A DNA stretch of 40,810 nucleotides from Phycisphaerales bacterium PN19_bin_20 (GTDB lineage: Bacteria; Planctomycetota; Phycisphaerae; Phycisphaerales; UBA1924), in the NCBI GenBank assembly GCA_021173225.1, contig JAJOLK010000023.1, positions 1 to 40,810 on the forward strand, written 5' to 3'. The position numbers and the translations under genes are program-made. This document shows, piece by piece, positions 15,455 through 20,467 of this stretch. The number at the start of each line of letters is the position of its first letter. Within the stretch, counting starts at the first letter, position 1. The notes under the pieces are model-generated. The model was not told the origin of the DNA and ran no database searches. It saw only the letters and a list, made by a program, of their open reading frames with translations.

Positions 15455-16558
15455 TTACTCAAGCCCTGCCAGAAACTCAACAGCGTCTTTGCTGCCGGCG
15501 GCGGCGGCCTTTGCAGCCAGTGCGCGGGATTGTGCAACGTCGCCGGCCTTCTGGCGCCAGCGGGCGGCTTCAAGCAAGAACGCCGCGTGATGGTCGCCCG
15601 GGCGTGCGGCGGCGGCCTCATACTGAGCGGCGGCCTCTGCCGGGCGGCGCAACATGCCCAGCGCGCCAGTAAGCTCGGCAAGCACCGCGGGCGTGAGTCT
15701 GTCAGCGTCGGCTAAGCCCACCAATACATCGGCGGCCTCTTGCGGCGCGTTGGCACGGCGGTGGGCCCGAGCCTCAACCACGCGCCAGCGGACGACCGTC
15801 GGCTGCAGCGCGCGGGCTTTGGAAGCGTGTTGCAAAGCCATCGCGGGCGTGTTGCCGCGGAGGGCGAGCTCGGCGAGTGTGCCCCAGGCCTCGGCAAGGT
15901 CAGGATCGAGCACGGTGGCGCGGACAAGGCTGGCGGTGGCGGCGGCGTCTTTGCTCTGCTTGATCTGGATCATCGCCAAGAACAGCGGGTGGCGGGCCTG
16001 GGTGGGTTCGAGGGCTTGGGCCCTTGCGTAGTGCGCGGCCGCGGCGTCAAGCTTTCCGAGCGTGTTGGCGATGGTGCCGGCCTGGACGTGCATGGTCGCG
16101 CTCGCGGGGCCGATCTCTATGGCGGTAATCAGCGACGGGAGGGCTTTGTCCCAGCGCCGCAGACCTTGATAGGCCGCGCTCATAGCAATGTGCAGCTCTT
16201 GGTCGTTGGGGTAGGCCTCGGCGGCGGGCGCGAGTATCGCGATGGCCTCTTCCCAGCGGGCGTCTACCAGCAGCGGCTGCGACCTGGCGAGTGCGTCGAG
16301 CGCTGACATAGGTACGGCGGCGGGGAGCGTGATGGATCCGGGCTGAGAGAGCTGGGCTGGCGCGGGGCCAGGGGCTGGGGCCGTGACGGCTTGCAGCAGG
16401 AGCCAGCCCATGACCAGGGCGGCGAGGATGAGGACGATCACGATGGGGGCGGTATAGCGTGCCGCGCCCGCACGGCGGGCGGGTGCGCGTGTGGGGTTGG
16501 GCGTGGAGCGCGCGGGGGCTGGGGCTGGTGATTGACAAGTTGGGCGGTGGTGGGCCAT
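15455..16558 (-). CDS. Membrane-anchored TPR protein
   Basis: The predicted 367-aa protein has a Pro/Arg-rich cytoplasmic N-terminus and a single transmembrane helix (APIVIVLILAALVMGWLLLQ, about residues 37-56). A C-terminal domain of tetratricopeptide-like repeats follows (for example RWEEAIAILAPAAEAYPND, RWDKALPSLITAIEIGP, KLDAAAAHYARAQALEP). Such proteins usually act as extracytoplasmic scaffolds. The start is divergent from valS with a short spacer. No specific partner can be named. Confidence 0.8.
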   Translation of the reverse strand: MAHHRPTCQSPAPAPARSTPNPTRAPARRAGAARYTAPIVIVLILAALVMGWLLLQAVTAPAPGPAPAQLSQPGSITLPAAVPMSALDALARSQPLLVDARWEEAIAILAPAAEAYPNDQELHIAMSAAYQGLRRWDKALPSLITAIEIGPASATMHVQAGTIANTLGKLDAAAAHYARAQALEPTQARHPLFLAMIQIKQSKDAAATASLVRATVLDPDLAEAWGTLAELALRGNTPAMALQHASKARALQPTVVRWRVVEARAHRRANAPQEAADVLVGLADADRLTPAVLAELTGALGMLRRPAEAAAQYEAAAARPGDHHAAFLLEAARWRQKAGDVAQSRALAAKAAAAGSKDAVEFLAGLE

Positions 16559-16630
16559 CGGTGCAAGGCTATCGGCTCGGCGGGGGTCGGTGCATCTATG
16601 CTGGGTGCTATGGCCGGCGAAGCACCATCA

Positions 16631-19600
16631 ATGAACCAGCAAGGTGACGGGCGTGGCGCAACTGGCAGCACCGGTGGGGGGATTGTCAGCGCGTTATCAA
16701 GCCAGTATGCGCCGGCTGAGCACGAAGGGGCCGTGCGGGCGCGATGGGAGGCCAGTGGGGCGTTTCACGCGGACGCGGGGCGTGTCGTGCGTGGCGAGGC
16801 GCCGGGGTACTGCGTGCTGATCCCGCCGCCGAACGTGACGGCACAGCTGCACCTTGGGCACGCGCTGAACAACACGCTGCAAGATGTGCTGGTGCGTGCC
16901 AAGCGGATGCAGGGCTTTGAGGCGCTGTGGATGCCGGGCACGGACCATGCGGGGATTGCGACGCAGGCGGTGGTCGAGAAGCGGCTGCGGGCCGAGGGCA
17001 AGCTGCGCGGTCCACTCAAGGGCGCGATGGCGCGCGATGAGTTCATCGGGCAGGTGCAGGCGTGGAAGGATGAGTACGAGGCCGTCATCACCAACCAGCT
17101 CAAGATGATGGGTTGCAGCTGCGACTGGGCCCGCCAGCGGTTCACGATGGACCCGCAGTGCGCGCGGGCGGTGTACGAGGCGTTCTACCGCTTGTTCTTG
17201 GACGGGCTGATCTATCGCGGCAAGCGCCTGGTGAACTGGGACCCGCTGCTGCAGACCGCCGTGGCCGACGATGAGTGCTACGACGAGGAGATCGACGGAA
17301 ACTTTTACTATCTGCGGTACCCGCTGGTGAGCCGTCGGGTTCTTGACGAGGCTGGTCAGAAGTTTGAGGCGGTGCCGGTGACATGGGGCGAGCTGCGCCG
17401 GCGCGGGTGGAATCAGCTTGAGGACGCGGCGCACGCTGACGATCTGGCGGCGTGGGTGACGGTCGCGACGACGCGGCCTGAGACGTACTTGGGCGATACG
17501 GCCGTGGCGGTGAGCCCGCACGACCCGCGAGCCACGGCGCTGCGCGGGCTCTATGCGCAGCTCCCGCTGGTTGGGCGTGTGGTGCCGATTGTCGAAGACG
17601 ACTATGTGGTGCTGCCCGAGCGGCTTGCGCGCAGCGACGAGGAGAAGGCGGACCCGAAGGCGAAGATGGCCACGGGCTTTTTGAAGGTCACGCCCGCGCA
17701 CGACCCCAACGACGAGCAGATCGGGCTGCGGCACCGGCTGGCGGTGATCAACATCTTTGGGCCCGACGCGAGCGTGAGCGACAAGCACGGGTGGAGCGAT
17801 GTTGGCGATGCGCACGTGTTTGTGGGCAAAAAGCGCGAGGAAGCGCGCAAGCTGGTGGTCATGGAGTTCAAGGCCCGCGGGCTGCACGAGGCAACGCGCC
17901 CGCACCGCCACAGCGTAAAGCACTCTGACCGCAGCAAGGCGATTGTTGAGCCGTACTTGAGCGACCAGTGGTACGTGCGTGTGACCGATCCGCGGCTGGC
18001 ACAGGCGGCAAATGAGGCGCTGGCGACAGACGTCCAAACCGTGGGGCGGGTGGTTGTTGATTCTTCGCGTGGGGCAGGTTTCCAACCTGCCCAGCTCTCG
18101 GTGGGTTCCGAGGCGGCACTGGTGGATAAGTCGATGCTGCGAGCGGAGCGTCGCTTGCCGCATTGGCAAAGAGGTGGCAGCACATACTTTGTTACCTATC
18201 GCACGCTCGACGGAGCATTGGGCGACACGGAGCGGCAGGTAGTCATTGACGCGTGGAAGCACTTTGATGGGGAACGCTACGAAGCGCACGCGGTCGTGGT
18301 GATGCCGGACCACGTACACGTGCTTGTCTCGCCGTATGTCAAGAGCGAGGGCGTGTGGCACTCGATTTCGGAGATCTTGGACAGTATCAAGCGCCACTCG
18401 GCGCTTGTGATTAATCAGGCACGCGGTCAGCAGGGGCAGCTCTGGCAAGACGAGTCGTTCGACCACATCATCCGCAACAGTGACGATTACTTCGAGAAGC
18501 TCAGGTACATCATTGAGAACCCCGTGGCCGCAGGCTTGTGCGGGCCAAGGGAGTCGTATCGCCACCTGACCGTGACTGACGAGGCGCGTCAGGGTCGGCT
18601 GCGTGCGCCTGAGCGGGTGCGTGGGGGGGCCGTGACCGGAGGGCAGGTTGGAAACCTGCCCCACGCGGAACTTGGAAACCTGCCCCACGCAACGATTCCA
18701 AGCTCTCAAACTACCGCCCAGACTGACCGCATCACCTTCCACCCGGCGCGGTACGCAAAGACGTATCAGCACTGGCACGAGGGGATCCGCGATTGGTGCA
18801 TCAGCCGGCAGCTTTGGTGGGGGCACCAGGTGCCGGTGTGGACGCATGCGACGGGCGAGCATGCGGCGGCAGAGCTGCACGCGCTGCGCGAGCTAGAGAT
18901 GGCCGGGCGTGTACGCCTTGACCTTCAGCCCGTGATGGGAGCAGACGTATTTGGGGGCACGAGCGGCGAGCGCAAGCACCGCGTGTGTGTGCGGAACCCG
19001 GGTGATGCCGAGGCCGTGGCGGTGATTGAGCGCGCGGGCTTCGTGCGCGATCCTGACGTGCTGGACACGTGGTTCTCCTCGGCACTGTGGCCGCTCTCGA
19101 CCCTGGGCTGGCCTGAGAACACGCAGGAGCTCGCGGCGTTCAACCCCTCCAGCACGCTGTGCACGGCGCGAGAGATCATTACGCTGTGGGTCAGCCGGAT
19201 GGTCATGTTCAACCGCTACCTCTATGGCGCCGGCGGCGGCAAGGGCCCGGTGCCTTTTACTGACGTGGTGATCCACGCGGTGATCCAGGACGGCGAGGGC
19301 CGCAAGATGTCCAAGAGCTTGGGCAACGGGATCGACCCGCTGGACATCATCGCCACGCACGGCAGCGACGCGATGCGATTTACGCTCTGCGCGCTGGCGA
19401 CGCAGACGCAGGACGTGCGGATGCCGGTGCAGAAGGACGCTAAGAGCGGGCGCAACAGCAGCGCGAAGTTTGACCAGGGCCGCAACTTCTGCAACAAGCT
19501 CTGGAACGCGTGCCGATTCGCGATTAGCAAGCTGCCCGCGGCGGGGCCGGAGGGCGCGGCGGTTGACATCGACCCGGCAGCGCTCTCGATTGTTGATCGC

Positions 19601-20467
19601 TGGATGCTCGGGCGCGTACACGCAGCGGTGGTGGCGATTGATCGGGCGATCGGTGAATATCAGTTTGCCGACTACGCCACGGCGCTATATGACCTGGTCT
19701 GGCGGGATTTTTGCGACTGGTACCTCGAGGCGATCAAGCCGACGGTCGAGAAGAGCCCGGCGCAGCAGGGCGTGCTGGCGGCGGTGATCGACGTGATCTT
19801 GCGGCTGGCGCACCCGGCGATGCCGTATGTGACCGAGGCGATCTTTGAGCACACGCGTCAGCTTGGCGTGCGTGCGCGGTTGGCGGGGCTTGAGCTTGGC
19901 GAGCCGCGCCGCGCGGGCTTGCTGTGCACCGCGCCTTGGCCGCAGGTTGGCCCCGAGCTGGTGGATGAGCGGGCATCGGCGGCGTTTGAGCGGCTGCGAA
20001 CGCTGGTTGAGCAGGTCCGTGAGGTGCGGGCGTCGCAGCAGATCAAGCCGCAGCACAAGGTGACGCTGCACGCGCCGGCGGCGCTGCGGGCCGAGCTTGC
20101 GGCTCCGGGCCCGCTGGTGATGGCGCTGGCGGGGCTGGCGGCGGTCGAGGTGCTCGCGGGCGAACTGCCAGCGGGCGCGATCAAGCTGCGGCTGCTGGGT
20201 GAGGACTGCGCGATCTCGGGGTTGGTCTCGGCATCGGCGTTGGGCGGGGGTGTTGGCTCGGGGGTTGATGCGGCTGCCCACGCGGCGGCGAGCGCTGAGC
20301 TTGCGGCTAAGCGTGCGGGTGATCTTCGCAAGCAGCACGCGACAATCGCTGCGCGGCTGGCCAACCCGGGCTATGCGCAGCGCGCACCGGCCAAGCTGGT
20401 CGAAGAGAGCAAGGCGCAGCTGCTGGCTCTTGAGGACGAGCTGAAGTCGATGGGGATGACGCTGTGA
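16631..20467 (+). CDS. valS: Valyl-tRNA synthetase with in-frame RAYT transposase insertion
   Basis: This class I synthetase charges tRNA-Val. HLGH (HIGH motif) lies at 16850-16861, GTDHAGIATQ follows, and KMSKS is at 19303-19317; the conserved CISRQLWWGHQVPVW block and a C-terminal coiled coil ending LKSMGMTL are also present. The frame is continuous, but between EPYLSDQWYVR and HPARYAKTYQHWHEGIRDW there are about 230 extra residues containing a complete RAYT domain bounded by REP palindromes (18067-18690). In other ValRS proteins these blocks are joined by a short loop after the editing domain. Without the insert the protein would be about 1050 aa, still somewhat long. ATG 16631 is chosen since the frame's earlier starts (16532, 16598, 16610) lack a clear ribosome-binding site; 16598 is possible. 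If the only valS, it must work with the insert or be spliced or cut. Confidence 0.93.
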   Translation: MNQQGDGRGATGSTGGGIVSALSSQYAPAEHEGAVRARWEASGAFHADAGRVVRGEAPGYCVLIPPPNVTAQLHLGHALNNTLQDVLVRAKRMQGFEALWMPGTDHAGIATQAVVEKRLRAEGKLRGPLKGAMARDEFIGQVQAWKDEYEAVITNQLKMMGCSCDWARQRFTMDPQCARAVYEAFYRLFLDGLIYRGKRLVNWDPLLQTAVADDECYDEEIDGNFYYLRYPLVSRRVLDEAGQKFEAVPVTWGELRRRGWNQLEDAAHADDLAAWVTVATTRPETYLGDTAVAVSPHDPRATALRGLYAQLPLVGRVVPIVEDDYVVLPERLARSDEEKADPKAKMATGFLKVTPAHDPNDEQIGLRHRLAVINIFGPDASVSDKHGWSDVGDAHVFVGKKREEARKLVVMEFKARGLHEATRPHRHSVKHSDRSKAIVEPYLSDQWYVRVTDPRLAQAANEALATDVQTVGRVVVDSSRGAGFQPAQLSVGSEAALVDKSMLRAERRLPHWQRGGSTYFVTYRTLDGALGDTERQVVIDAWKHFDGERYEAHAVVVMPDHVHVLVSPYVKSEGVWHSISEILDSIKRHSALVINQARGQQGQLWQDESFDHIIRNSDDYFEKLRYIIENPVAAGLCGPRESYRHLTVTDEARQGRLRAPERVRGGAVTGGQVGNLPHAELGNLPHATIPSSQTTAQTDRITFHPARYAKTYQHWHEGIRDWCISRQLWWGHQVPVWTHATGEHAAAELHALRELEMAGRVRLDLQPVMGADVFGGTSGERKHRVCVRNPGDAEAVAVIERAGFVRDPDVLDTWFSSALWPLSTLGWPENTQELAAFNPSSTLCTAREIITLWVSRMVMFNRYLYGAGGGKGPVPFTDVVIHAVIQDGEGRKMSKSLGNGIDPLDIIATHGSDAMRFTLCALATQTQDVRMPVQKDAKSGRNSSAKFDQGRNFCNKLWNACRFAISKLPAAGPEGAAVDIDPAALSIVDRWMLGRVHAAVVAIDRAIGEYQFADYATALYDLVWRDFCDWYLEAIKPTVEKSPAQQGVLAAVIDVILRLAHPAMPYVTEAIFEHTRQLGVRARLAGLELGEPRRAGLLCTAPWPQVGPELVDERASAAFERLRTLVEQVREVRASQQIKPQHKVTLHAPAALRAELAAPGPLVMALAGLAAVEVLAGELPAGAIKLRLLGEDCAISGLVSASALGGGVGSGVDAAAHAAASAELAAKRAGDLRKQHATIAARLANPGYAQRAPAKLVEESKAQLLALEDELKSMGMTL
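18067..18092 (+). repeat. Left REP palindrome of the RAYT element
   Basis: GGGCAGGTT (18072-18080), TCC loop, AACCTGCCC (18084-18092), preceded by GCGTG. It is the exact reverse complement of 18641-18666. In the valS frame it reads GAGFQPA. Confidence 0.93.
18641..18690 (+). repeat. Right REP palindrome plus tandem half copy
   Basis: GGGCAGGTT (18641-18649), GGA loop, AACCTGCCC (18653-18661), then CACGC, mirroring the left end exactly over 26 bp. A 19-bp direct copy of its right part (ttggaaacctgccccacgc) recurs at 18672-18690. In frame this codes for two QVGNLPHA/LGNLPHA-type peptides. Confidence 0.92.

Follow-up and report, generated by a model that had tools for sequence, protein, structure and literature searches.

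An in-frame REP-associated tyrosine transposase in valyl-tRNA synthetase suggests a protein-resident form of REPtron

The persistence of selfish DNA in compact bacterial genomes is usually explained by intergenic sites, by splicing (introns and inteins) or by domestication. The locus examined here lies on a window of 40,810 nucleotides, one whole contig of a Phycisphaerales assembly (3.10 Mb, 59 contigs, 90.9% complete), and raises the question of whether a transposase with its own terminal repeats can reside within the coding sequence of an essential enzyme. A first-pass annotation had described a complete REP-associated tyrosine transposase (RAYT) in frame inside valyl-tRNA synthetase (ValRS), and our analysis bears this out. 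A single frame without internal stop runs through both on the plus strand (16532..20467; 1311 codons from the first TTG), and the corresponding database protein (P0001, 1278 aa) would begin at the ATG at 16631. NCBIfam recognised a valine--tRNA ligase (NF004349; 899.7 bits, cut-off 704) in two stretches flanking the insert, together with REP_Tyr_transpos (NF047646), which scored 84.7 on 18065-18691 alone, over its curated cut-off of 80, and 79.8, slightly below it, in the whole protein. The Pfam matches were tRNA-synt_1, Anticodon_1, Val_tRNA-synt_C and Y1_Tnp, the last below cut-off in the whole protein and above it for the insert alone.

Both ValRS halves are intact, as the same annotation had held, and the insert occupies a normally short loop. 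The N-terminal half (16697..18061, plus strand) comprises the catalytic and editing domains up to the loop, with the HIGH motif as HLGH (16850-16861, by alignment); the C-terminal half (18737..20464, plus strand) comprises the DWCISRQLWWGH block, the anticodon-binding domain and the C-terminal arm, with the KMSKS motif at 19304-19318, likewise placed by alignment. From SDQWYV to DWCISRQ the window's loop measures 271 aa; relatives with the shortest empty loops have 39 aa there. Within it, the RAYT domain, a TnpAREP-type HUH/Tyr transposase (18131..18580, plus strand), retains its HUH motif MPDHVH (18302-18319) and its catalytic tyrosine codon TAC (18506-18508, in the motif LRYIIENPV), so that the earlier statement of intact motifs stands on direct reading of the sequence. 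The domain is bounded by a GTGG-tagged palindrome on the left (18066..18092, plus strand; translated RGAGFQPA) and its perfect reverse complement on the right (18641..18667, plus strand; translated GQVGNLPHA), followed by a partial third copy of 19 nt (18672..18690, plus strand), a direct repeat of 18648-18666. The two arms are 100% complementary, as had been noted, at a length of 27 nt and not the 26 bp given before; each contains a 21-nt palindrome, and both are free of stops in all six frames. The element had further been given as exactly 200 codons long. Measured from REP to REP it is 602 bp, and the figure of 200 codons marks no natural unit and carries no special meaning, because elements in ValRS span 514 to 712 nt from tag to tag. 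On the minus strand, a 727-codon open frame runs antisense to valS (16697-18880) and crosses the insert too; GC-rich coding DNA likely produces it as a shadow frame.

Structure prediction is consistent with a transposase carried as an additional domain. An AlphaFold model of 16697-20221 reached a mean pLDDT of 77.6, with 80-97 in the RAYT and 23-47, in ten-residue blocks, in two linkers; the isolated RAYT domain was modelled at 87.3. The best match of the whole model was Thermus ValRS (1gax), and Foldseek returned TnpAREP (4er8) as the first match of the isolated domain, with a TM-score of 0.66-0.67. Four weaker matches of the RAYT to WD40/WRAP-type repeat proteins, from a sequence search of solved structures, were judged spurious. 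The model thus predicts a normal ValRS fold from one loop of which a folded transposase hangs by disordered linkers, these being the REP-coded stretches.

The first-pass annotation had described the arrangement in this one gene and had proposed a search of related genomes for filled and empty sites. It is not a single case. Using only the N-terminal half of ValRS as query, and thus blind to the RAYT, we searched 61 genomes, of which 58 matched, and read the 30 best loci, the window's own included. In nine (L001, L020, L025, L028, L029, L034, L035, L042 and L048) a RAYT lies in frame between SDQW and DWCISRQLWWGH; in L025, which is cut by a contig end, and in L035 the motif scan saw one side and the RAYT was placed by profile. 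The shortest empty loops have 39-41 residues. In a second set of 80 named loci, titled almost throughout as Phycisphaerales or other Planctomycetota and over-representing RAYTs since the query itself included one, 25 carry a RAYT of one of three types, with the signatures LPHWQ.GGSTYF (type A), TFTTYGTWLHGD (type B) and LPHVEL.GATYF (type C). When filled loci were aligned at the DNA level with their empty neighbours, in seven groups, all three types fell in the same short ValRS segment, each with its own mirrored repeats. As read from these alignments, the ValRS loop is a recurrent hot spot for at least three RAYT types in Phycisphaerales. Verrucomicrobial ValRS rows have a different insertion site, judged by the flanking residues. 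Traces of past occupancy in empty loops were weak (stems of at least 7 in 15 of 60 loops and in 109 of 726 control windows). Four RAYT-free loops (L022, L043, L087 and L100) show, by eye, a solitary GTRG-type tagged palindrome, possibly a scar or a landing site. Two loci labelled Leptolyngbya and Cyanobacteria (L071 and L103) encode ValRS of Phycisphaerales type and are probably mislabelled bins.

Similar inserts occur in many other housekeeping proteins. A search among large proteins, scored on the RAYT region and restricted by length, gave 140 matches, and in 114 of the 120 listed at least 80 residues of protein lie on both sides of the RAYT. Hosts besides ValRS include LeuRS, RdgB, an HscA-like chaperone and, among 16 proteins scanned with NCBIfam and over cut-off there as ValRS itself was, IleRS, ThrRS, AlaRS, ArgRS, PurH, PriA, RecG, CarB, MetH and DnaE. 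The same scan named HscA and a DUF1156 antiphage-associated protein below cut-off and gave no host name for P0098; it also led us to relabel two rows read as ValRS, which are IleRS, and one read as DnaK, whose best match is HscA, below the curated cut-off. RAYTs were also seen within defence-type or methylase-type proteins (P0018, P0024, P0050 and P0115; DUF1156 antiphage-associated; Pfam PF06634, PF02384 and PF04313). Automated annotation already records single RAYT fusions (e.g. P0047, P0067 and P0071).

A census of the window's family found a RAYT in 98 of 150 genomes. The matches listed fall, by our reading, into two kinds: a longer one, in open reading frames of about 170-430 aa, and a shorter one, in frames of 368-1517 aa. 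We fetched 47 further loci of the shorter kind and identified among their hosts ValRS, LeuRS (at two sites), RdgB/Ham1 and one KBL-like enzyme, the last label being our reading of an Aminotran_1_2 match. RdgB/Ham1 itself has only about 200 aa, yet in 17 loci (e.g. L161, L162, L173 and L189) it contains a RAYT almost as large, near the last third of the protein. LeuRS carried an embedded RAYT in all three of the congeners searched (L144, L201 and L205, in genomes G001, G003 and G002); in the window genome LeuRS lies on contig C14, and no RAYT was detected outside valS. With a profile derived from type A copies embedded in ValRS, embedded copies of types A and C reached 118-265 bits and the family's free-standing ones 34-61, a gap that is expected in part from the use of embedded copies for training; one free-standing census match (L153) fell below its threshold. 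The census and this gap had suggested an exclusively protein-resident subfamily, which we rejected since similar free-standing RAYTs exist across the phylum.

Are the embedded transposases maintained? The analyses of dN/dS, REP flanks, start codons, frame phase and the RAYT tree exclude the window duplicates L005, L006 and L019, the masked L177 and the refetched free-standing copies L206-L209, with identical RAYT cores collapsed (19 in the RAYT tree); those of dN/dS, start codons and frame phase further exclude L025 and L069. The HUH and Tyr patterns are both kept in 171 of 177 embedded copies, and one of the six failures is cut by a contig end. In the seven most similar embedded pairs dN/dS was 0.10-0.16; in more distant listed pairs it rose to 0.50 or was not computable through saturation. 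By this codon-level measure, the transposase of related embedded copies is under purifying selection. These observations bear on the notion that the arrangement is an assembly chimera or a pseudogene. Most of the genomes are metagenome assemblies, and repeats flank the insert, but the frame is preserved in many independent assemblies, including long contigs (P0005, 4.62 Mb; P0045, 4.38 Mb; P0053, 4.85 Mb), and selection acts across embedded RAYTs, so that we give this explanation next to no weight. Indeed, chance or a local chimera is excluded because the same arrangement recurs in many independent genomes. With the first-pass annotation, a chimera at the junctions had been named as one ground for doubt and a second valS as another; the former is contradicted by this recurrence, and for the latter the only other valS-like matches in the window assembly, at its 90.9% completeness, were IleRS and LeuRS.

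Inverted REPs flank 58 of 61 embedded copies, beating 20 shuffles (ValRS 30/30, LeuRS 11/13, RdgB 16/17, KBL 1/1), and inverted REP pairs also accompany 20 of 27 free-standing RAYTs. Of the 40 embedded copies with a recognisable tag, 34 have a length of 1 mod 3 from tag to tag, the window being an exception. The same phase was seen in 10 of 14 free-standing copies (L130-L157), without an obvious coding constraint to account for it. If the RAYT were instead expressed separately from an internal start, the fusion would be incidental. Such a start is at hand in the window, where an in-frame ATG (18134) lies near the beginning of the RAYT, and some ATG, GTG or TTG is found there in 38 of 61 embedded copies. 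Moreover, P0012 (800 aa), which bears the annotation of a REP-associated tyrosine transposase, starts 8 residues before the RAYT core and extends into the ValRS C-terminal half, which is either an effect of start calling or a truly split valS. Yet only 17 of the 61 embedded copies keep ATG itself, whereas 22 of the 27 free-standing ones do (Fisher 4.6e-6), a Shine-Dalgarno-like motif precedes a possible start in only 3 of 61 (also low in free-standing copies, 3 of 27), and the ValRS C-terminal half would still require read-through of the insert. We therefore regard separate expression as improbable.

How did the RAYT come to occupy this loop in some genomes and not in others? When 204 RAYT domains were placed on a tree, the host labels required 32 changes, where 26 is the minimum and shuffled labels average 139.3 (0 of 200 shuffles gave so low a count); RAYT lineages are therefore tied to host proteins. 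Either a preference for particular targets or transfer through recombination within the conserved host gene could account for such host-specific lineages. Type B RAYTs are absent from the RAYT trees. A ValRS core tree, with the loop removed, was built from 105 rows with enough sequence on both sides (60 empty, 37 type A, 4 type B and 4 type C); on it the empty state changes 24 times, at least 22 of these forced by starred branches, and supported sister ValRSs carry different types (C and A in L159/L179; B and A in L068/P0020). For 35 type A copies, RAYT data reject the host topology (AU p = 1.3e-6) and host data reject the RAYT topology (1.6e-19), values not to be pressed exactly given the LG+G4 model and the short RAYT alignment. 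In the same copies the distances of RAYT and host remain correlated (Mantel r 0.35, a value reached in 0 of 2000 permutations), so that part of the RAYT history is shared descent or co-transfer with the host gene. A single ancient insertion into ValRS, inherited vertically and lost many times, would agree with this correlation and with the placement of most type A ValRS copies in neighbouring regions of the RAYT tree. It is hard to reconcile with a loop that has taken up three RAYT types or more, with the type-mixed sisters and with the mutual rejection of topologies, and we consider it very improbable; as a full account, purely vertical descent is contradicted by the last two and by the forced changes.

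A more plausible rival, though still an unlikely one, is that the RAYT was captured by ValRS as a domesticated domain that serves the host, for example in regulation via REP DNA or RNA, its mobility being purely historical. Purifying selection on the RAYT and its persistence in an essential single-copy gene would fit, as would the description of RAYTs elsewhere as resembling housekeeping genes in their behaviour, in the available parts of an earlier survey (PMC6006769). Capture of this kind sits poorly with the patchy presence of the insert, given the forced changes on the ValRS tree, with the occupation of one loop by different RAYT types and with the finding of such inserts in functionally unrelated enzymes. 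Across the phylum, a related RAYT was found at E <= 1e-15 in 104 of 392 genomes, and 18 of 26 placed relatives are free-standing. On the phylum-wide tree (without L210, L212, L213 and L225) embedded and free-standing states change 10 times, at least 6 of them forced, with a long-branch warning at one free-standing row; protein residence therefore arose or reverted several times.

Taken together, we find an in-frame, stop-free, REP-bounded insert with conserved catalytic motifs that recurs and turns over at one loop, all of this at the level of sequence. In our view it is probably a protein-resident REP-RAYT-REP element, a REPtron inside host proteins that would be translated as a separately folding extra domain of ValRS. 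With somewhat less assurance, we favour the wider reading of a class of mobile element that would have proteins as its habitat: its repeat ends stop-free, itself a domain of essential enzymes, returning in an intein-like manner to host-specific loops and dispensing with splicing since the host protein tolerates the insert. Its hosts would then include six aminoacyl-tRNA synthetases as well as replication, repair and purine enzymes. The window's RAYT domain is, by prediction, a putative cutter and mover of REP DNA, and its genome holds possible substrates: 14 REP palindromes, two of them the element's own ends, with none for the reversed pattern. The remaining ones lie, by eye, outside conserved genes, several in short arrays; a permissive count with 3 mismatches (44 forward and 40 reverse against 33 and 22 in the control) was uninformative. 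Searches of the assembly with the window's own RAYT and with NF047646, both of which type B might escape, gave no second RAYT. The window's copy, the sole RAYT detected, is probably the one that serves the same-type REPs dispersed in the genome.

Under such residence, the RAYT would be produced whenever the essential host gene is expressed, the fusion protein being made with a functional synthetase half, and would act on REPs in trans as well as on its own ends. The element might spread via single-stranded DNA between its REP ends, as IS200-type enzymes do, and insert into loops that tolerate inserts, with repeated swapping and loss thereafter. Decay that broke the frame would cost the host its synthetase, which would protect the element; the element would also gain a steady level of expression from the essential gene around it. 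Several points weigh against a mobile REPtron: REPtrons seem immobile as a unit and RAYTs mostly vertical in the available account (PMC6006769), most of the placed relatives across the phylum are free-standing, free-standing copies are REP-flanked too, and RAYT and host distances correlate; to these may be added the six pattern failures, the window's in-frame ATG and its departure from the common frame phase.

Were the reading correct, an essential enzyme would tolerate the element as one of its in-frame domains, and the element would persist there with its expression and survival coupled to the host gene. The embedded copies would then be a natural collection of inserts, about 150-230 residues long, that essential enzymes tolerate. 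They would also offer a direct route to asking whether RAYTs are selfish or useful, a matter debated in the RAYT literature. No description of a RAYT inside a host protein was found in the titles or abstract openings of the papers listed, bioRxiv and most subscription papers being outside this search. An earlier survey, as far as its available text goes, set aside "unexpectedly long" RAYT proteins as fusions or annotation errors (PMC6006769), and there is now reason to re-examine those it discarded.

Among known systems, the window element belongs with RAYT/TnpAREP by its curated score, its HUH and Tyr motifs, its tagged REPs with cognate genomic REPs and its fold. With the REPtrons, as described in the accessible parts of earlier work (PMC2817692, PMC3733652, PMC6006769), it shares the HUH and Tyr residues, GTRG-tagged inverted REPs, dispersed REPs of the same type and the 4er8 fold. 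Known REPtrons are intergenic and seemingly do not transpose as a unit, to judge from the available text (PMC6006769), whereas the window element is stop-free, in frame in an essential enzyme and subject to site turnover. REPs within open reading frames, tRNA synthetases included, are already known (PMC3733652), and Rickettsia palindromic elements (RPEs) form in-frame inserts in protein-coding genes, according to the accessible description (PMC10969869). Both resemble our element as in-frame palindromic repeats in coding genes, tRNA synthetases among them; in the available accounts (PMC3733652, PMC10969869) they are short repeats or repeat groups, RPEs being compared by description, while here a mobilising enzyme lies between the repeats. 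IS200/IS605 elements and IStrons share the Y1 HUH transposase fold and terminal hairpins, in the portions available (PMC4227781), but the NCBIfam IS200 model scored 21.4 against a cut-off of 55, and the window insert had no Rfam match that would indicate an intron; in contrast to IStrons, harmlessness would come from remaining in frame. Inteins are likewise in-frame inserts in conserved proteins, sporadic, in lineages tied to host proteins and with an internal nuclease, as described in part in the available text (PMC1635734). They differ from the window insert, whose ends are REPs and which shows no sign of splicing; it had been called free of intein splicing motifs, and no intein family, splicing domain or homing-endonuclease domain was found among the Pfam and NCBIfam matches of the valS-RAYT protein. 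The outcome of residence in proteins would thus be an intein-like distribution, achieved without splicing.
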